DNA of 64,000 nucleotides from Acidimicrobiia bacterium (GCA_027494165.1 JAOSJM010000001.1:1116001-1180000); one strand, 5' to 3'; shown: positions 7,627 to 19,415, counted from the stretch's first letter. The notes: generated from the sequence alone by a model not told the origin. Numbers and translations: made by a program.

Positions 7627-9055
7627 GTGCCCGTCCTGCTGCCCGACCAGCCGCTGCGATCGCTCGACGAGTACCGGGCCTGGGGGGCGGGGGCGCGCTC
7701 ACCCGGGCCCGGGAGCTCGGCCCCGACGCCGTGGTCGAGGCGATCACGGCCGCGGGCCTCCGGGGTCGCGGGGTGCCGGATTCCCGGCCGGGACCAAGTG
7801 GTCGTCCATCCGCGAGGGCGGCCCGGAGGTGGGCGAGCGCTACGTCGTGGCCAACGGGGCCGAGGGCGAGCCGGGCACCTTCAAGGACCGGATGCTCATG
7901 CGGCGCAACCCCTACCAGGTGCTCGAGGGCGTGGCCGTGGCGGCACAGGTCGTCGGCGCGGTCCACGCCTTCGTCGCCGTCAAGAGGTCCTTCGAGCCCG
8001 AGACGGCGGCGCTGAGCCGGGCGCTGGCGGAGATGAGCGAGTCCGGGATGCTCGGCGACGTGCCGATCTCGCTCGTCGGTGGGCCCGACGAGTACCTCTT
8101 CGGTGAGGAGAAGGGCCTCCTCGAGGTCATCGAGGGGGAGGACCCCCTGCCCCGCATGTTCCCCCCGTTCGTGTACGGGCTCTTCACGACGTCACCGCAG
8201 ATGGGCTGGTCGGCCGGGGTGGAGGTTCCGGTCGGGCCCGGGGATCCGAGGAGGGGGTGGCGCGGTCCAACCCGACGCTGGTGAACAACGTCGAGACCCT
8301 GGCGAACGTCCCCGTCGTCCTCCGCGACGGTCCCGAGTCGTACCGGTCCCGGGGCACGGACCGGTCCCCGGGCTCGGTGATCGTGACGGTCGTCGGTGAC
8401 GTGGCGCGCGCCGGGGTGGCGGAGGTGGACCTCGGCACGCCCCTGCGCGAGGTGCTCGATCGGGTCGGCGGGGGCCTCCGGCCCGGCCGCCGGGTCAAGG
8501 CGGTGCTGCCGGGAGCCGCCAACCCGGTCGTGACGGCCGACCACCTGGACGTCCCCCTCACCTACGAGGGCCTCGAGGCCGCCGGCAGCGGCATGGGCGC
8601 GGCCGGCTTCGTCGTCTACGACGACACCACGGACATGGTGGCCGTCGCCCGGGCCTTCTCGCGCTTCCTCTACGTCGAGTCCTGCGGGCAGTGCCCGGCC
8701 TGCAAGTTCGGCACCGGTGAGGTCACCGCGTACCTCGACCGGATCCTCGCCGGCCGGGGGACCGACCACGACGTCGAGGTCATCGGGGCCAGGCTCGTGA
8801 CCGTCACCGACGCGAATCGCTGCTACCTCCCGGTCCAGGAGCAGCGGCTGATCGGGAGCCTCCTGCGGGCCTTCCCCGAGGACTTCGCCGCCCACCTGGA
8901 GGGCCGGGCCCCCGTCCGCGGAGGCCCGGATCCCGAAGATCGTGGACCTCCTCGACGACGGCACCGCCGTGTGGGACGAGCGGCAGGCCACCAAGCGTCC
9001 CGACTGGACGTACGAGGAGGGATCCCCGGGCGGCTCCGGCGGGTGGCCGGGCTGA
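7627..9055 (+). CDS. NuoF-like NADH-binding flavoprotein, stand-alone, several frameshifts
   Basis: Homologue of the 51-kDa complex I subunit that takes electrons from NADH to FMN and a 4Fe-4S cluster. The restored protein has the NADH loop GRGGAGFPAGTKWS, the FMN motif NGAEGEPGTFKDR and the cluster motif ESCGQCPACKFGT with a later Cys in ANRCYLPVQEQ. Frames break near 7690, 7770, 8243 and 8930, three times by apparent loss of a G or C. GTG 7627 follows GGAGG. Unlike true NuoF it has no nuoE, nuoG or other complex I gene nearby, so it may serve another NADH-dependent redox complex; the C-terminal tail (about 45 residues after the cluster domain) is unusual. Restored length ~476 versus ~430 for NuoF. 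Confidence 0.82.
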
Positions 9056-9068
9056 GGGCCGCCCCGGG

Positions 9069-10518
9069 TCAGGGGACGCTGGGGGCGCGCGACTCCGCCG
9101 GACCGTCGAGCGTGCCCAGGTGGACCTCGTCGCCGCCCCCGACGACCTCGGCGAAGCCGGCCCGGAAGCAGGCGGCGAGCCGCTCGTGGTCGGGGACGGC
9201 GCCGGTGTCGCTCGTGATCCCGATGCAGGCCATGTTGCGGTAGCTGATGAGGGTCACGTTGAGGGCGGCGCCGGACAGCGGACCGAGCGCGAAGAACCGT
9301 TCGACGCGGGCGCCGGCGGTGTAGATCGGCACCGGGATCCCGGGGACGTCGCTGGCCACGAAGTCGACGTGCTTGAGCATGGCCCCGAAGAAGCCGGTGG
9401 TGAACCAGGCCGGGAGCCGGTTGAACACCGCGGCCAGGGTCTCGGTGAGGGGCAGGGCCGGCTCGCGGCGCCACTCCCGGCAGATCTGCCCGAGGCGGCG
9501 CATCCGCTGGTCGGGGTCCACGACGTCGACGGGGGAGCTCGAACCGGGCCGGTATGAAGCGGTTGCCACCCAGCGCGTCGCCCTCCTCGCGCAGGTTGAT
9601 GGGCATCGTGACCCGGAGGGACCGGACCGGGGCCCCGTGCTCCTCGTGGTAGCGGCGCAGGCCGCCGGTGATCCCGGCGAGGAAGGCGTCGTTGAGCGAG
9701 CCCTCCACGCGGTGCCCGGCGTCGCGAAGGGCCTCGAGCGGCAGCTCCAGGAGGTGGTAGTGCCAGGACTTGCTGCGGTCCTGCATCACCGGAGAGAGGG
9801 TGCGCGTGGCCGGGGCGAGGACATGCCCCACCGAGCGGGCGAGACGGGACAGCGCGCGCACCTCGCGCCCGGGGTTGATCGCCAGGCGGCCCGCGCCGCG
9901 CAGCGGTGAGCCGAGGCCGCGGCGGGCGAGGCCGACGGCCCGGCCGGCGTTGCGCACGACGGCCTCGCGGGCGAGGTCGAGGCCGCCGGGCGACTCCGGG
10001 GCCGGTGCCGCCGGGAGCGGGCCCTCGTCGGTGGGCTCGCGCTCGGTGTCGTAGAGGAGCGAGACCAGGCGCATGCCGCCGACCCCGTCGCTGAGGGAAT
10101 GGTGGTACTTCTGGACCAGCGCGGCCCGGCCGTCCCGGAGTCCCTCGACGAGGGTGACCTCCCAGAGCGGGCGGGTGCGGTCGAAGCCGGCCATGGCCCA
10201 GACCCGGGCCTGCTCGAGCACGGACTCGAGGTCGCCCGGCGGGACCGCCTGCACCCGACGGACGTGGTAGTCGAGCTCGAAGTGGGGGTCGACCACCCAG
10301 CGGGGAGCGGCCAGCCGGAGCGGGTACTCGGCCACCCGCTGACGCATGCGGGGGATGAGCCGGCTCCCGCGGTCGATCTTGGCCCGGAGACGGTCCCAGT
10401 CAGGGTGGCGGTCGAGCAGCGCGAGCACGACGATCGTCGTCCGCAGCAGTGGGTCCCGCTCGATCGTCCACAGGACGCCGTCGGACTCCCCCATGTACGG
10501 ATCGAACCGCTCGTCCAT
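9069..10518 (-). CDS. WS/DGAT wax ester synthase / diacylglycerol acyltransferase, one frameshift
   Basis: Transfers acyl groups from acyl-CoA to fatty alcohol or diacylglycerol, making storage wax esters or triacylglycerol at the membrane. The catalytic motif HHSLSDG (HHxxxDG) lies near residue 130, preceded by DYHVRR and followed late by the family motif N.TLISYRN seen as NVTLISYRN. ATG 10518 follows AGAGGTG. The frame shifts near 9545 in a C run (FELPRR should read FELPVDVVDPDQRM) and then runs to TGA at 9069. Restored length ~482 residues, standard for the family. It stands alone, convergent with the NuoF-like gene. Confidence 0.9.
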
Positions 10519-11636: not shown

Positions 11637-13115
11637 GTGCCGGGATCGGAGTCGGCCCTGGCGGTCGCGGCCGCCCTGCTGCTGGCCGGCGTGCTGGCCA
11701 GCAAGGTCGCGGCGCGGCTGGGCGTCCCCGCCGTCCTCCTCTTCCTGGGGCTGGGGATGCTCGCGGGGTCCGAGGGGATCGGACGCATCGAGTTCGACGA
11801 CTTCGAGCTCGCCCGGACCGTCGGGACGATCGCGCTGGTGTACATCCTCTTCGCCGGTGGCCTCGACACCCGCTGGCGGGAGGTCCGGCCCGTGCTCGGG
11901 CCCGGGCTCGCGCTGGCCACCGTCGGGGTCGTGGTCAGCGCGGTCGTGACGGGCGCGTTCGCGGTCGTCCTGCTCGACCTGTCCGCGCTCGAAGGCCTGC
12001 TCCTCGGCTCGATCGTCTCGTCCACGGACGCGGCCGCGGTGCTCTCCGTCCTGCGCTCCCGCCAGGTGAGCCTCCGGGGCCGGCTCCGTCCGCTGCTGGA
12101 GCTCGAATCGGGCAGCAACGACCCGATGGCGGTGTTCCTGACGATCGGTTGCCTGGAGCTCCTCGAGGACGGGGGGACGAGCGGGGCCGGGCTCGTGCCG
12201 ATGTTCCTCGTGCAGATGGTCGCCGGGCTGGTGTTCGGGCTGGTGCTCGCCCGGGTGGCCGTCTTCGCGATCAACCGGCTCCGGCTGGAGTACGAGGGCC
12301 TGTTCCCCGTGCTGAGCGTCGCGTCGGTGCTGCTCGTCTACGCGGTCACCACCGCGGTGGGCGGGAGCGGCTTCCTCGCCGTCTACGTGGCCGGCCTGAC
12401 GATGGGCAACACGACCTTCCTCCACCGCCAGAGCCTGACCCGGTTCCACGACGCCCTGGCCTGGTTGGGCCAGATCGGGATGTTCCTCCTGCTCGGGTTG
12501 CTCGTCTTCCCCTCGGACCTGGTTCCCCTCGCCGGGCGGGCGCTCCTCCTGTCCCTCGTCCTGCTGGTCGTCGCCCGGCCGATCGCGGTGTTCGCCTCCC
12601 TCCTCGCCAGCGGCCTGGCCACCCGCGAGCGCCTCCTCGTCGCGTGGGTCGGCCTGCGGGGTGCCGTCCCGGTGATCCTGGCGACGTTCCCGGAGGCGGA
12701 GGGACTGGACGCGGCCGACACGATGTTCAACGTGGTCTTCTTCATCGTGATCACCTCGGTGCTCGTCCAGGGGACCACGGTGCCGGTCGTCGCCCGCTGG
12801 CTGGGGGTGGAGGCCCCCGCAGGGGCGGCGCGCCCGCCGCAGGTGATCCGCGGTGACGAGCTCGGGGAACGGGCCCTCCACGAGGTCGAGGTGGGGCCCG
12901 GATCGGCGGTCGTCGGGTGTCAGGTCCTGGACCTGGCGCTTCCTCCCGACGTCCTGCTCGTCCTCATCGCGCGGGGCGACGAGCACGTGGTTCCCCAAGG
13001 AGCCACGACGCTGGCGGCGGGTGACCGCGTGCTCGTGCTGGCCGATGACGATCGGATCGCGACGGTGCGGGCGTTGCTGGGGGGATCCGCAGGCGGTCCC
13101 GGACCGGGGAGCTGA
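11637..13115 (+). CDS. Potassium/proton antiporter, CPA1/NhaP2 type with RCK_C tail
   Basis: Integral membrane exchanger with about 12-13 transmembrane segments (residues 5-390) followed by a cytosolic TrkA-C domain (GDELGERALHEVEVGPG to the end). The ion-binding region SSTDAAAVLSVLRS and the downstream ELESGSNDPMAVFL, with the conserved Asp residues, match CPA exchangers. GTG 11637 is preceded by GGGGCTGAG. 492 residues. Pairing with the KhtT-like gene suggests potassium efflux in exchange for protons, used for pH or osmotic control; sodium as substrate cannot be excluded. Confidence 0.92.
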   Translation: MPGSESALAVAAALLLAGVLASKVAARLGVPAVLLFLGLGMLAGSEGIGRIEFDDFELARTVGTIALVYILFAGGLDTRWREVRPVLGPGLALATVGVVVSAVVTGAFAVVLLDLSALEGLLLGSIVSSTDAAAVLSVLRSRQVSLRGRLRPLLELESGSNDPMAVFLTIGCLELLEDGGTSGAGLVPMFLVQMVAGLVFGLVLARVAVFAINRLRLEYEGLFPVLSVASVLLVYAVTTAVGGSGFLAVYVAGLTMGNTTFLHRQSLTRFHDALAWLGQIGMFLLLGLLVFPSDLVPLAGRALLLSLVLLVVARPIAVFASLLASGLATRERLLVAWVGLRGAVPVILATFPEAEGLDAADTMFNVVFFIVITSVLVQGTTVPVVARWLGVEAPAGAARPPQVIRGDELGERALHEVEVGPGSAVVGCQVLDLALPPDVLLVLIARGDEHVVPQGATTLAAGDRVLVLADDDRIATVRALLGGSAGGPGPGS

Positions 13116-13196: not shown

Positions 13197-14353
13197 TCAA
13201 CCGGCGACGTCGTTGATCACCGAGCACACCCGCTCGACGTCCCGGGACGACATCGCCCCGTGGAGCGGGAGGCACGCCACCCGGGCGGCGGCCCGCTCGG
13301 CCACCGGGAGCCGGTCGGGCGCGGCCGAGGGGAGGTCGCGGAAGTGGGGGAAGTGGCTGCAGAGCTGGCGGAAGTAGGGCCGGGCGTGGACGCCGGCGGA
13401 GGCGAGGTGGGTGAGGAGGGCCGAACGGTCGGTGCCGGCTGCCTCGTCGACGATCACGGGGAGGTACGAGCCGTTGTGGTCGACGCCCGGCTGCTCGGGC
13501 AGGGGACGGATGCCGTCGAGGCCGGCGAGCAGGCTGCGGTAGCAGGCGACGAGCTGCCGGCGGTGGGCGATCTCCTGGTCGACCTGGTCGAGCACGAGCA
13601 GGCCCACGAGCGCCTGGACCTCGTTGAGCTTGGCGTTGATCCCCGGGAGCTCCACGTCACCGCCGGGCTCCATGCCGAAGTTGCGGAGGCGCCGGAGCAC
13701 CGGCCCCATCGACTCGTCGGCGTAGGTGAGAGCGCCGCCCTCGAGGGTGTGGAAGACCTTCGTGGCGTGGAAGCTGAACGCCGAGGCGTCGCCGAGGTTC
13801 CCGACGGGGGCGCCGCAGGCGGTGACCCCGAAGGCGTGGGCGGCGTCGTAGAGGACCCGGAGGTCGTGCCTCCGGGCGACGGCGGCGATCTCGTCGACCC
13901 GGCAGACGTTGCCGAACACGTGCACCGGGAGGATCCCCGTGGTCCGCGGGGTCAGGACCTCCTCGATCCGCTCCGGGTCGAGCGTGAGGTGGACCGGCTC
14001 CACGTCGACGAACACGGGGGTGATCCCCATCCAGGCGAGGGCCTGGGCGGTGGCCGGGAAGGTGAACGGGGTGGTGACGACCTCGTCGCGCAGCCCGAGC
14101 GCCTGCCCGCCGAGCTGGAGGGCGGCCGTGCCGGAGGCGAGGAGCGACAGGTGGGGGACCCCGAGGCGGTGGCGGAGCCGCTCCTCCAGACGGTCGTGCA
14201 CGGGACCGCTGTTCGTGAGCCAGGCCCGCCCGAAGATCTCCTCCAGGCCCTCGACCACCTGGTCGAGGGGGGCAGGCCGGGGCGGGTCACCAGGAGCGGC
14301 TCGGGTTCCCGCTCCTGGCCTGCGGGGGAGCCGGCGGCGTCGTACCCGATCAC
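13197..14353 (-). CDS. DegT/DnrJ/EryC1/StrS sugar aminotransferase, one frameshift
   Basis: PLP enzyme that transaminates a keto-sugar nucleotide to an amino sugar. The PLP lysine is in SFHATKVFHTLEGGA near residue 220, with substrate-binding LLASGTAALQL and DAAHAFG motifs. The true start is GTG 14353, giving the typical VTRPGLPPLDQVVEGLEEI beginning; a C6-run shift near 14270 separates it from the track ORF that starts at 14258. The start overlaps the stop of the glycosyltransferase gene (GTGA), so it is the last gene of a four-gene operon with NeuD, BKACE and GT2 genes. Restored length ~385 residues. Which carbon is aminated cannot be told from sequence. Confidence 0.88.
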
Positions 14354-15467
14354 GGCCGGGACCGCCCTCGACCGAGCCGGGACCGGGCGGTCCGCCACCC
14401 GCGCCCGAGAGCCCGGGCCCCCGGGACCCCGGCCTTCACGGTCTCCTTCCACGCCGTGACGTGGACCCGGATCCGGTCGGACCGGCGGGGGAGAAGGGCC
14501 GTGGCCAGGGCGAGCGTGACGCGCCTGCGCCACGGCTCGCGGCGGGCGGCGGCGGCCCGCAGGGACCGGGTGATCGGACCCCACCGGTAGGTGGCCGAGA
14601 ACTCCTCCATGAGCTCCAGCTCGGGGGGTGGGCGGCCGACACCGAGCCGAAGTGCTCGGCGACGAGCAGCGCGAGCGCGCGCAGGTCGAGGTCGGGCCGG
14701 GAGGCGCGCTGGGCGGGGCGCAGCCGGTACAGGAGCGTGGGGTCGTCCACGAGGTGGATCGGCGCGATCCGGGCGAGGGCGAGCGACGCCGCGTAGTCGG
14801 ACATCCCTCCCGCCTGGGGCGAGAAGAGGCCGGCGGCCAGCAGGGTCTCGCGCTCCACGAGCATGGTGGTGGTCCAGAGACGGCTGTGCTCCAGGAGCGT
14901 GGGCCGATCGAGCACCCGCGCTTCCTCGGGGACCGGCCCGGTGACCCGGCGCGCCGCCATCGCGAGCACCTCGGCGTCGAGGGTGGCGCGCGGGGCCCGG
15001 AGGTCGACGGGGGTGTCGGGGTCGTCGGCGAAGGCCCCGGCGTCCTCGTCGGCGACGAAGGTCAGCACGGTGGTGGCGACGGCCCGGCAGTCCGGATGAC
15101 GCTCCAGGTACGCCATCAGCCGTTCGAGGCGGTTCGGCAGCCACAGGTCGTCGGCGTCGAGGGCGGCGACCCACCGGCCCCGGGACGCCACGATGCCCGC
15201 GTTGCGGGCCAGGGAGGTGCCGCGGTTGGGCTGGCGGATCACCGTGACCTCGGGATGGGTGGCCCGGACCACCTCGACCGAGTCGTCCCGGGAGCCGTCG
15301 TCGACGACGACGACCTCGAGGTCCGGGACGGTCTGGGCCGCGACGGAGGCGAGGGTCGAGGCGATGGTGCGAGCGTTGTCGTGGACGGGGATCACCACGC
15401 TCACGAGGGGCGTGGCGCGCTCCGCGGCCCCTGCCGCCCCCGTGGCGCCGTCGGCCAACGTCGTCAC
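14350..15467 (-). CDS. Glycosyltransferase family 2 (GT-A fold), one frameshift
   Basis: Transfers a sugar from an NDP donor, probably to a lipid- or protein-linked glycan. The N-terminal GT-A core shows VSVVIPVHDNARTIASTL, VVVVDDGSRDDS, and the metal-binding DALDADDLW with N-terminal priming strand NRGTSLARNAG. GTG 15467 overlaps the upstream stop (GTGA). The frame breaks near 14625 (HPPSWSSWR should read HPPELELMEEFSATYRWG) and then ends at TGA 14350, itself overlapping the aminotransferase start. These two flanking overlaps independently confirm both frames. About 372 residues; the last ~100 are basic and may contact the membrane. Confidence 0.85.
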
Positions 15468-16336
15468 CGTCGGGGCGGGAGGCCGAGCCGCTCGCGGGCC
15501 TGCGCCGGGGTGGCGATCCCCCGCCCGGCGAGCCTGGCCGCCGCGACGGCGTGCTCGACGGCCGCGACGTTGCTGGTGGGCTCGCCCCGGAGGTCCCGGG
15601 GTGCGTCCTCGAGGCCGGTGCGGACGTTCCCACCCATGGCGATCGCGGCCATGACCATCGGGCGCTGGAAGACCCCGATGCCCGCCGCCGACCACACCGA
15701 ACCGGCCGGGAGCCGCTCGACGATCCGGGCCAGGTCTCCCACGAACGCCGGAGCCGCGCCCAGGGACCCGAGGAGCACGTTCACGTAGAGCGGGGGCTCG
15801 AGGAGCCCGCGCTCCTGCAGCACGTGCGTGTAGTTGGCCATCCCCAACTCGAACACCTCGAGCTCGGGACGGACCCCCCGCTCGGCCATGCGGCGGAGCA
15901 GGGCCTCGATCACCTCGGGCGGGTTGTGGCTGACCGTGCGGGGGAAGTTGAAGGACCCGAGCGTGCAGCTCGCCATGTCGGGGAGGAGCTCGTCGTCGAG
16001 GTCGAGGGCGGTCATCCGGGCGCGCGGATCCGGGTCGACACGCGCGCTCGTCGTCATGCAGACGACGAGCTCGGGAGCCTGGTCGCGGATCGCGCCGATG
16101 ACCTTCTCGTACAGATCGCGCCGGTGGGTGGGCCGGCCGTCGTCGTCCCGCACGTGGACGTGCACGCACGCGGCCCCGGCCCGGGCGCACGCGACGGCGT
16201 CCTCCACGATCTCCTCGGGGACCATCGGCACCGCCGGGCTGTCGTCCTTGGTGGGGACGGCGCCGGTGAGCGCGACGTTGACGATGACGTCGGGCCATCC
16301 CCCCAGCGGCGGGGGCGCCCACGGTCGATCACGCAT
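15464..16336 (-). CDS. BKACE family beta-keto acid cleavage enzyme (DUF849)
   Basis: Family members are zinc enzymes that condense a beta-keto acid with acetyl-CoA and cleave it to acetoacetate and a new acyl-CoA; the founding member cleaves 3-keto-5-aminohexanoate. This 290-residue protein has the zinc ligands HVHVRDDDGR (HxH) near residue 58, the N-terminal VIVNVALTGAVPTK and the TSNVAAVEHAV ending motif. ATG 16336 follows CGGGAGGAA. It sits between NeuD-like and glycosyltransferase genes, not in a lysine fermentation cluster, so the substrate is likely different. My inference is that it may supply an acyl-CoA for acylation of an amino sugar. Confidence 0.9.
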   Translation of the reverse strand: MRDRPWAPPPLGGWPDVIVNVALTGAVPTKDDSPAVPMVPEEIVEDAVACARAGAACVHVHVRDDDGRPTHRRDLYEKVIGAIRDQAPELVVCMTTSARVDPDPRARMTALDLDDELLPDMASCTLGSFNFPRTVSHNPPEVIEALLRRMAERGVRPELEVFELGMANYTHVLQERGLLEPPLYVNVLLGSLGAAPAFVGDLARIVERLPAGSVWSAAGIGVFQRPMVMAAIAMGGNVRTGLEDAPRDLRGEPTSNVAAVEHAVAAARLAGRGIATPAQARERLGLPPRR

Positions 16337-16372
16337 GGTTCCTCCCGGGGGCGAGGGTGGCGCCCGGAGCGC

Positions 16373-17013
16373 TCACAACGGCTCCACCCCTTCCCTCACG
16401 ACGCGCGCCGGGACTCCGGCGACGAGGACGTGGTCGGGCACGTCACGCGTCACCACGGCGCCCGCGGCGAGGATCGAGCCGACGCCGACGCGGATCTTCT
16501 CGATGACGACCGCGCCGATCCCCACCCACGTACCTTCACCGATGACGCACGATCCTGCCACCTGCACGCCGGGCCCGACGGTCGCGAAGGGCTCGACGAC
16601 GGTGTGGTGGCCGATGCTCGCCCCCGGTTGAGCAGCACGTGGCGGCCGACGCGGCTGTGGGCGGCGACGATGGCTCCGACGCTCACCACGCTTCCCGTGC
16701 CCACCTCGCTGCGAGGGGACACGGTGGCCCGCGGGTGCACGACGGTCTCGAACGGCATGCCGAGCGCTTCGACCTGGTCGGTGAACCGCCGGCGCTTCGT
16801 CGTACCGAGACCGCACACGGCGGCATGGGTCCCGGCGAGCCCGGCGAGATCGTCGATCCACAGCACCGGGTGGCCTTCGACCGGGGCGCCACAGCGGGTC
16901 CGGTCCAGGTTCTCGACCAGCGCGGCGACCTGGAAGCCCGACTGCTCGGCCACGTCGGCCACCTCCAAGGCGAAGGCGGACGCCGCGCCGAGGACCACGA
17001 CCGGGCGGCTCAC
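16373..17013 (-). CDS. NeuD/PglD-like sugar acetyltransferase, one frameshift
   Basis: Left-handed beta-helix acyltransferase that adds an acetyl or other acyl group to an amino- or nonulosonic sugar. Residues 1-90 form the small Rossmann-like domain (PVVVLGAASAFALEVADVAEQ), and the rest is hexapeptide repeat, including GASIGHHTVVEPFATVGPG with the likely catalytic His and the closing VAGVPARVVREG. The frame shifts near 16625 (NRGRASATT should read NRGASIGHH). GTG 17013 is the best start. About 213 residues, normal for NeuD/PglD. First gene of the operon, 36 nt before the BKACE gene. Confidence 0.85.
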
Positions 17014-17191: not shown

Positions 17192-17257
17192 GTGGAAGAC
17201 GCCGGAGCGCCCTGTCGCCGTCGCGATCTGCGGGGTCCGTGGGGCGGCGCCGCGTGA
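17192..17257 (+). CDS. Short upstream ORF, 21 codons, overlapping next start
   Basis: GTG 17192 lies 5 nt after a TATCGT box (17180-17185 region) and opens a 21-codon frame ending in TGA 17257, which overlaps the GTG of the cation exporter (GTGA). The peptide VEDAGAPCRRRDLRGPWGGAA has no recognisable family. It could be a leader peptide coupling translation to the transporter, or chance in GC-rich DNA. Too short for the ORF track. Confidence 0.35.
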   Translation: MEDAGAPCRRRDLRGPWGGAA

Positions 17258-17820
17258 GCGCCGCGCTCGTGAGCCTCGGCGTCGTCTTCGTGGCCGAGCT
17301 GGGTGACAAGACCCAGCTCGTCGTGCTGGCGATGGGGGCACGCCATCGGCCCGCGGCCGCCCTGGCCGCGCTCGCGGCGACCGCGGCGGCGCTGATGGCC
17401 CTGGCCGTGGCCGCGGGGGCCCTGCTCGGCTCGGCGCTGCCCGAGCGGGCCGTCGCGGCGGGAGCCGGCGTGCTGTTCCTGGCGTTCGCGCTGTGGTCCC
17501 TCCGCGAGCTGGCGAACAGCCGGGACGCCGGCGCTGTCGCGCCACGCGGAGCCCGGGGCCTGCTCCCGCTGGTGACCGCGTTCTTCGTGGCCGAGCTGGG
17601 TGACAAGACCCAGCTCACCGCCGGGTCCCTCGCCGCGCGTGGCGGCGCTCTGGGTACCTGGGTGGGCGCGACCCTCGGCCTCGTGGGGGCGACGGCGATC
17701 GCGCTCGGGGCGGGCCGGCTCCTGTCGGGGCGGCTCTCCGAGCGCGCCCTCGGCTACGTGGCGGCCGTCGCCTTCACCGTCGTGGGCGTCGCATCCCTGG
17801 TGGTCGCCCTCCGCCCGTGA
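17254..17820 (+). CDS. TMEM165/GDT1 (UPF0016) family cation exporter
   Basis: Membrane protein with six predicted transmembrane helices in two homologous halves, each containing the hallmark FVAELGDKTQL motif (near residues 11 and 111). Relatives in yeast, plants and cyanobacteria export manganese or calcium from the cytosol in exchange for protons; for this protein that is inference. 188 residues, usual for bacterial members. GTG 17254 overlaps the stop of the short upstream ORF. I looked for a yybP-ykoY-like manganese riboswitch in the ~60 nt before it and saw none. Confidence 0.9.
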   Translation: MSAALVSLGVVFVAELGDKTQLVVLAMGARHRPAAALAALAATAAALMALAVAAGALLGSALPERAVAAGAGVLFLAFALWSLRELANSRDAGAVAPRGARGLLPLVTAFFVAELGDKTQLTAGSLAARGGALGTWVGATLGLVGATAIALGAGRLLSGRLSERALGYVAAVAFTVVGVASLVVALRP

Positions 17821-17868: not shown

Positions 17869-19415
17869 ATGGTGGAGGTGGCGGGATCGGACGATGGGCA
17901 CGCCGGGGCGCGACCGGGACGCGCGATGACGGGTCGTTCGCCGGCCTTCGCGTCGCTGGCGCGGGTGCACGTCATGAGCACCGCCGCGGACGCGTGCTTC
18001 ACCGTGTCGCTCGCGGGCTCGCTGTTCGTGAACGTGAGCGTCGACGCCGCCCGGCCGCGGATCCTGCTGTACCTGCTCTTCACCATGGCGCCCTTCGCCG
18101 TGGTCGCACCGCTGGTCGGGCCGCTCGTCGACCGGTTCCGTAGCGGCCACCGCCTGATGCTCGTGGCGGCCAGCGCGGGTCGGGCCACGATGTGCCTCCT
18201 CCTCGTGCGGGACCTCCGGACCCTGCTGCTGTACCCGGAGGCGTTCGTGGTGCTGGTCCTCGGGAAGTCCTACTCGGTCACCAAGAGCGCCCTGGTCCCT
18301 CGCCTGGTGCCGGACGCCGAGGATCTGGTGGTGTCGAACTCGCGGTTGTCCCGGATGGGGACGCTGGCCGGGATCGCGGGCGGAGTCACGGGCGCCGCCG
18401 TGCTGGCGTTGGCCGGGGGTTCCGGTGTCGTCCTGGTGGCCGCTGCCCTCCACACGCTGGGCGCCGTCTTCGTCGCCCGCGTGCCGCGGACCCTCCCGGC
18501 GGGCGTGCCGCGCTCGGCGGCGGCGGTCCAGGAGCTCCACGCCCCGCCGCTCGTCCTCGCCGCGTCGTCCATGGGGATGCTGCGAGCGGCCGTGGGCTTC
18601 CTCGCGTTCGCCGTCGCCTTCTCCTTCAAGCGTGGAGGGAGGCAGCCTGGCTCTACGGCCTCGTGCTCGCGGCGGGCGCGGTGGGCGGGCTCGGAGGGAC
18701 GTTCGTCGCCCCGGTGGCGCGCCGGTCGGCGCGCGAGGAGCCGCTGCTCCTGGCGGCGCTGGGGACCGTGGCCGTGGCCGGGCTCGCCGGCGCGGTGTGG
18801 TTCGGGACCCCCGCGGTGGTCCTGGCCTCCGCGGTCGTGGGCCTGGGCGCGACGGGCGGGCGGCAGGCCTTCGACAGCTTCGTGCAGCACGCCGCCCCGG
18901 ACGCGGATCGGGGGCGGGCGTTCGCCCGATTCGAGACACGGTTCCAGCTCGCGTGGGTGCTGGGAGCGCTGCTGGCGGTCGTGTGGCAGCCGACGGGGCG
19001 GGGCGGGCTGGCGGCCCTGGGTGGGGCGATGGCCGGGACGGGGGCGTGGTACGTCGTGGGACTCCGATCAGCGGGCCGCCTCGGGGGCCTCTGGACGGCC
19101 GTGGCCGGGGCAGGGCGGCCGCCACCCGACGTCGTCGACGTCCTGCTCCAGGATGCTCGGGACGCGCTCGCCACCGGCGCTGCGAGTCGTGCGGTCGCCG
19201 GCTCGCTCGCCGCCGCGGAGGTCCTCCTCGTCCGGATCGCCCGGATGGGTCGAGACGTTGGAGGCGACAGCCCGGTGGAGGCGGCGCGGGGGGACGTGCG
19301 CCGTCTCTGGGGCGTGCTCGCCTCAGGGGACCCGGTCACGGCCGAGCACGCAGGGCGCGCGGTGGAGGTCGCCGGGCGGCTCGAGCAGCTCCTGGGCCCG
19401 ACGGGCGACCGCTGA
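17869..19415 (+). CDS. MFS transporter with C-terminal cytosolic extension, one frameshift
   Basis: Major facilitator protein with about twelve membrane segments, beginning after ~25 polar residues; the loop LVGPLVDRFRSGHR between helices 2 and 3 matches the MFS G-x3-D-R-x-G motif. The frame shifts near 18635 (FKRGGRQPG should read FK.WREAAWLYGL). After the last helix comes a ~110-residue soluble tail rich in Ala and Asp/Arg (from DVVDVLLQDARDAL), not usual for the family. ATG 17869 follows GGGAGG; ATG 17926 is an alternative. Transport substrate unknown. Gene lies 48 nt after the GDT1 homologue. Confidence 0.82.

Follow-up and report, generated by a model that had tools for sequence, protein, structure and literature searches.

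Several described pathways combine a DegT-family sugar aminotransferase with a NeuD-type acyltransferase to generate a 4-N-acyl sugar, i.e., VioA/VioB, PerA/PerB and PglE/PglD. Anthrose biosynthesis of Bacillus comprises an enoyl-CoA hydratase, a glycosyltransferase (GT), a DegT aminotransferase and an acyltransferase. The anthrose sugar itself has been described (PMC9614988). Here, we analyze a cluster of four minus-strand genes in Acidimicrobiia bacterium, at positions 13197-17013 of a 64,000-nucleotide stretch of DNA (GCA_027494165.1 JAOSJM010000001.1:1116001-1180000; the window), that encodes, in this order, a NeuD-type acyltransferase, a beta-keto acid cleavage enzyme (BKACE), a GT of family GT2 and a DegT aminotransferase. 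As in the anthrose pathway, a dedicated acyl-CoA-making enzyme is encoded together with DegT, an N-acyltransferase and a GT, and the proposed product is a 4-amino-4,6-dideoxyhexose with a nonacetyl N-acyl group; however, the putative donor enzyme is a BKACE (TIM barrel, zinc, acetyl-CoA-dependent retro-Claisen chemistry) rather than an enoyl-CoA hydratase, and the cluster lacks a methyltransferase. VioA/VioB, PerA/PerB and PglE/PglD, by contrast, use plain acetyl-CoA and are without a BKACE. We suggest, as the probable though far from assured explanation, that the BKACE supplies a special acyl-CoA and that the neighboring N-acyltransferase puts this acyl group on a 4-amino-4,6-dideoxy sugar. 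An earlier reading of the window, made from the sequence alone (the sequence-only reading), knew of no such pairing, and the open-access literature that we searched, outside which most subscription journals fall, likewise held no description of a BKACE paired with glycan genes.

The linkage of BKACE to NeuD and DegT is real and clade specific, and several lines of evidence support this. First, the window BKACE and 20 others form a single clade in a maximum-likelihood tree (support 100/99), and 13 of these 21 have NeuD or DegT within 5 kb, compared to none of 47 other BKACEs (68 loci in total, with mean flanks of 8.4 and 9.0 kb and no query counted for its own locus). The Fisher p value of 6.5e-9 is a guide only because the clade loci are all from a single phylum and related genomes cannot be counted as independent events. 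If any sugar or acylation gene nearby is counted, the numbers are 18/21 and 2/47; some of the partner queries were themselves taken from clade members, which tilts this wider count toward the clade and makes the NeuD/DegT count the more reliable. Second, when 51 genomes with a BKACE match were searched by profile, over-cut-off NeuD proteins were found at only eight places, three of which adjoin the three BKACEs that are at least 49% identical to that of the window, while the other five lie away from any BKACE. Together with the 47 control loci, this search leads us to reject chance adjacency. Third, the sequence-only reading proposed a neighborhood search and held that an arrangement confined to the source genome would speak against it. 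In fact, the association of BKACE, NeuD, DegT and GT recurs, in varied order, in about twenty related genomes, which also rules out a chance find in one genome.

Gene order and orientation differ from locus to locus. All four gene kinds are present in the window and in L109, where NeuD-GT2 converges with BKACE-DegT, and three of the four are present in L107 (BKACE-NeuD-GT2, the only locus with a short-chain dehydrogenase/reductase [SDR] gene upstream of BKACE), L135 (DegT-NeuD-BKACE) and L144 (BKACE-DegT-NeuD). The order is NeuD-BKACE in L108, with WecB/WecC opposite, and in L137, and BKACE-NeuD in L142; the two genes are divergent in L140 and convergent in L145. BKACE precedes a GT4 gene in L138 and L143, and GT4 and hexapeptide transferase genes in L110. 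L135, L137, L138, L140 and L142-L145 came from searching the orders of two relatives' genomes. Three tandem related GT2/GT92-like genes lie upstream of the DegT-NeuD-BKACE genes of L135 (3398-6558), and in L134 (about 8839-9033) a DegT N-terminus is in frame with a NeuD C-terminus ahead of BKACE; the latter probably arose from a DegT-NeuD-BKACE operon by a deletion or a misassembly.

Three extra clade members, picked before their neighbors were seen, all lie among sugar or acyltransferase genes. In G1154 (L189:2471-3805), BKACE is fused to a GNAT domain in a 444-residue protein whose gene adjoins two sugar-transfer-associated ATPgrasp_ST genes (PF14397). In G1170 (L191:3759-5678), the gene for a 639-residue protein overlaps the BKACE stop by 4 bp; the C-terminal half of this protein is DegT, and its N-terminal part is GT2-like by eye, with Pfam giving only a weak nucleotidyltransferase match. 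In G1141 (L190), BKACE lies beside GT2 genes and rmlA/C/D. Elsewhere, BKACE adjoins a GNAT gene (L141) or is directly followed by a single-module nonribosomal peptide synthetase (NRPS; condensation-adenylation-carrier-thioesterase) in L136 (280-4437) and L139 (4560-8471), the product of which could be an N-acyl amino acid or a lipopeptide. The shuffled gene order, the operon overlaps and the BKACE-GNAT fusion all point to a functional connection, and the fusion fits with hand-over of an acyl-CoA. What the neighbors share, despite their unrelated folds, is amide or acyl formation, as expected around an enzyme that makes an acyl-CoA.

The window BKACE is the sole PF05853 match in the source genome (294.7 bits; cut-off 24.8) and, in the profile search, scores under the cut-offs of all characterized BKACE equivalogs, e.g., 215.5 bits against NF053568 (3-oxoadipate:acetyl-CoA acetyltransferase; cut-off 350) and 237 bits against NF052387 (Kce; cut-off 382). 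Its predicted structure is a TIM barrel (pLDDT 89.9) with 3no5 as the top fold match (TM 0.89). It has the zinc ligands, i.e., HxH and Glu, and the catalytic Arg and Asp of BKACEs, and the metal-binding and catalytic residues H59, H61, E160, R239, E243 and D244 are invariant across the clade alignment. The same fold, zinc site and catalytic residues are found in Kce (2y7d), from which the window BKACE differs in having Val27 at the position of Glu14, which binds the substrate amine, and Phe162 at the position of Tyr145. The sequence-only reading would have been weakened by a BKACE grouping with enzymes of lysine or carnitine catabolism; instead, the protein falls in a clade of its own on the 3-oxoadipate side. 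In a tree built before the last three members were added, the sister group of this clade consists of 3no5 and 3chv, both 3-oxoadipate BKACEs (support 85). The tree and the missing Glu14 lead us to reject a role in lysine or carnitine catabolism. In addition to fold and tree position, the clade shares the Phe and R99 with 3no5 and 3chv; however, it is separate from them, and neither NeuD nor DegT lies within 5 kb of the control members near 3no5. R99, which is absent from Kce, belongs to a clade-specific conserved loop after strand 3 (S97, R99 and R107), and its presence in 3no5 and 3chv makes a substrate with a distal carboxylate possible.

Of 57 other genomes in the order to which the source genome belongs, 33 encode a BKACE of some kind, and no clade member was recognized among these (best identity 36%). 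Class and phylum samples contained a 61% identical relative (G327) and several near 49%, and a scan of genome contigs returned only nonclade BKACEs among all those placed in trees. Among plasmids, the one match was a BKACE with 43% identity from Streptomyces camelliae (NZ_CP115301.1:104035-104856).

An active-site Tyr, Tyr145 in Kce, has been stated for all BKACEs (PMC12871164); the clade departs from this because Phe162 is invariant in 15 members. BsfD of flavophos biosynthesis, a DUF849 enzyme, likewise has Phe where the catalytic Tyr would be, and catalyzes acetyl transfer followed by decarboxylation such that the acetyl group stays on the substrate without cleavage (PMC12871164). By analogy, the clade BKACEs could place the acetyl group of acetyl-CoA on a beta-keto substrate in a Claisen condensation without retro-Claisen cleavage, giving a beta-diketone or an acetylated building block for later incorporation into a glycan or peptide, and the clade loop after strand 3 occupies the region that bears the substrate arginine of BsfD. 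We consider such chemistry unlikely. Although 3no5 and 3chv pass the 3-oxoadipate equivalog cut-off, they carry Phe at the Tyr145 position; Phe162 is, therefore, compatible with BKACE membership, canonical cleavage stays the likelier reaction, and Phe162 is rejected as proof of noncanonical chemistry. Moreover, the clade is without the roughly 20-residue insertion of BsfD, and an acyl-CoA product better explains why clade BKACEs are linked and fused to CoA-dependent acyltransferases. BsfD also differs in acting on a phosphonate, in its extra loop, in its acetyl-retaining product and in having no sugar genes around it.

The partner enzymes are in agreement with the synthesis of an acylated amino sugar. 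NeuD, once its two frames are joined, scores 164.4 bits against TIGR03570 (cut-off 160.8), GT2 scores 109 bits against PF00535 and DegT scores 326 bits against PF01041, so that, with PF05853 for BKACE, the family labels of the sequence-only reading hold. The closest solved homolog of DegT is DesI (2po3; E = 1.6e-70), followed by perosamine synthetases; the protein is below the DesI equivalog cut-off (306 versus 650). The source genome encodes an over-cut-off RmlB and, thus, can make dTDP-4-keto-6-deoxyglucose. Elsewhere in this genome (G000:C5:323848-331777), RmlB is clustered with two related SDR sugar-nucleotide enzymes, and the DegT substrate probably comes from this cluster.

The nearest solved relatives of NeuD are the PglB acetyltransferase (4m98), PerB (4ea7) and VioB (7txp). 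Nine BKACE-linked NeuD proteins form a clade of their own (support 96). Those reaching the active site (eight, including that of the window) have a GHH motif, as read by eye, in place of the [DE]H[DE] pattern of PglB and PerB; these two and two unlinked NeuD proteins have DHD, and the other unlinked ones have GHD or SHD. The catalytic His is preserved within GHH and lines up with the PerB His that is altered to Asn in 4eaa; for PglD, PMC2943079 cites His125 as the general base. The GHH motif suggests a changed substrate or donor of the linked NeuD proteins. Alternatively, these proteins could be ordinary N-acetyltransferases, as are the solved NeuD, PerB, PglD and VioB structures, with BKACE recycling a by-product, serving an unrelated pathway or riding on variable islands. 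Glycan loci are mobile and collect passengers, and BKACE uses acetyl-CoA, which an acetyltransferase also needs. We regard this scenario as doubtful given the clade-specific linkage, the rearranged gene order, the operon overlaps, the BKACE-GNAT fusion, and the separate clade and motif of the linked NeuD proteins.

We, therefore, return to an acyl-CoA made by BKACE for the acylation of an amino sugar, for which we infer the catalytic steps, the direction of the BKACE reaction, the identity of the acyl group and the destination of the sugar. Judging from its family, DegT would aminate a nucleotide-linked 4-keto-6-deoxy sugar. BKACE, based on family and fold, would convert acetyl-CoA and a beta-keto acid to acetoacetate and a new acyl-CoA. 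The NeuD-type enzyme would then move this acyl group to the sugar amine, and GT2 would transfer the finished N-acylated 4-amino-4,6-dideoxyhexose to a glycan or lipid acceptor. No neighboring source of the beta-keto acid was seen in every locus. Candidate acyl groups are those not already common in the cell, e.g., a hydroxyacyl such as glyceroyl or 3-hydroxybutyryl. In deoxyribonate catabolism, a BKACE has been proposed to form glyceryl-CoA from 2-deoxy-3-ketoribonate (PMC6365646), making hydroxyacyl-CoA products plausible. That system similarly yields an unusual hydroxyacyl-CoA from a sugar-derived beta-keto acid; however, its operon is catabolic (SDR, lactonase and transporters) and the product is degraded rather than used for acylation. 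Because the nearest characterized relatives act on 3-oxoadipate, malonyl or succinyl is also possible.

Some observations weigh against this pathway. The NeuD of G327, the genome with the closest BKACE relative, is divergent and falls outside the clade of linked NeuD proteins. The clade has Phe at the Tyr145 position, and the Phe-bearing BsfD does different chemistry (PMC12871164). Three of the four cluster genes are frameshifted and, if these breaks are real, the copy in this genome is dead. Finally, neither NeuD nor DegT was detected within 5 kb of 8 of the 21 clade BKACEs, some contigs being short. An NRPS lies beside two of these eight; the link is, therefore, to acylation and amide formation generally and not solely to amino sugars. 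More tentatively, and with somewhat less confidence than doubt, we suggest that the clade serves as a portable donor module for biosynthesis, in which an uncommon acyl-CoA is made on site and passed to an adjacent amide-forming partner, i.e., a NeuD-type or other hexapeptide transferase, a fused GNAT or an NRPS with a single module.

The gene layout of the window is summarized in Table 1. Re-reading of the sequence bore out the four minus-strand genes of the sequence-only reading together with the two GTGA overlaps, which join BKACE to GT2 and GT2 to the DegT start, and the 36 nt between the NeuD stop and the BKACE ATG. Plus-strand genes flank the cluster, i.e., a Na+/H+ exchanger (11637-13115) and GDT1 (about 17254-17820). 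The genes are thus real; what the sequence-only reading overlooked is that NeuD, GT2 and DegT are each split over two frames by a single base, leaving BKACE alone unbroken.

Table 1. Genes of the acylation-linked BKACE cluster in the window
Feature	Position	Strand	Remarks
NeuD/PglD/VioB-type hexapeptide sugar N-acyltransferase	16373..17013	-	TIGR03570; frameshift at plus-strand G run 16621-16625
BKACE (PF05853, beta-keto acid cleavage enzyme family)	15464..16336	-	intact; starting sequence of the acylation-linked clade
GT2 family glycosyltransferase	14350..15466	-	PF00535; frameshift at plus-strand G run 14623-14628
DegT/DnrJ/EryC1 sugar aminotransferase, DesI/perosamine-synthetase-like (C4 amination)	13197..14353	-	PF01041; frameshift at plus-strand G run 14267-14272

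With frameshifts in three of its four genes, the cluster could be the decaying remnant of a pseudogenized operon, which we consider very unlikely. Every break is one base within a G/C run of five or six, and codon usage and protein conservation are normal on either side of every break. Two further, unrelated genes nearby, for an acyltransferase (near 9531) and an MFS protein (near 18640), are also split, which favors sequencing error over decay. The genome assembly (4.41 Mb) consists of 12 contigs and is 85.9% complete with 5.2% contamination, which also makes uncorrected sequencing indels the likely cause. In the window, at least five genes have single-base frame breaks, and in four the break falls at a G/C run of five or six. 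Predicted gene numbers and pseudogene assignments for the source genome need caution.

Altogether, these findings suggest that surface sugars in these bacteria probably carry an unusual acyl group, and the clade offers a route to new acyl sugars. Annotating NeuD-type enzymes in these genomes as acetyltransferases by default is unwise. The BKACE-GNAT fusion would allow both steps to be assayed in one protein. BKACEs are classed as catabolic enzymes, and a large part of the family has no assigned role; the tie of this clade to N-acyltransferases provides a testable one. If the clade is indeed a portable donor module, this would be the first biosynthetic use of retro-Claisen BKACE chemistry in acylation, and would point to glycans and small molecules with acyl groups that have so far not been described.

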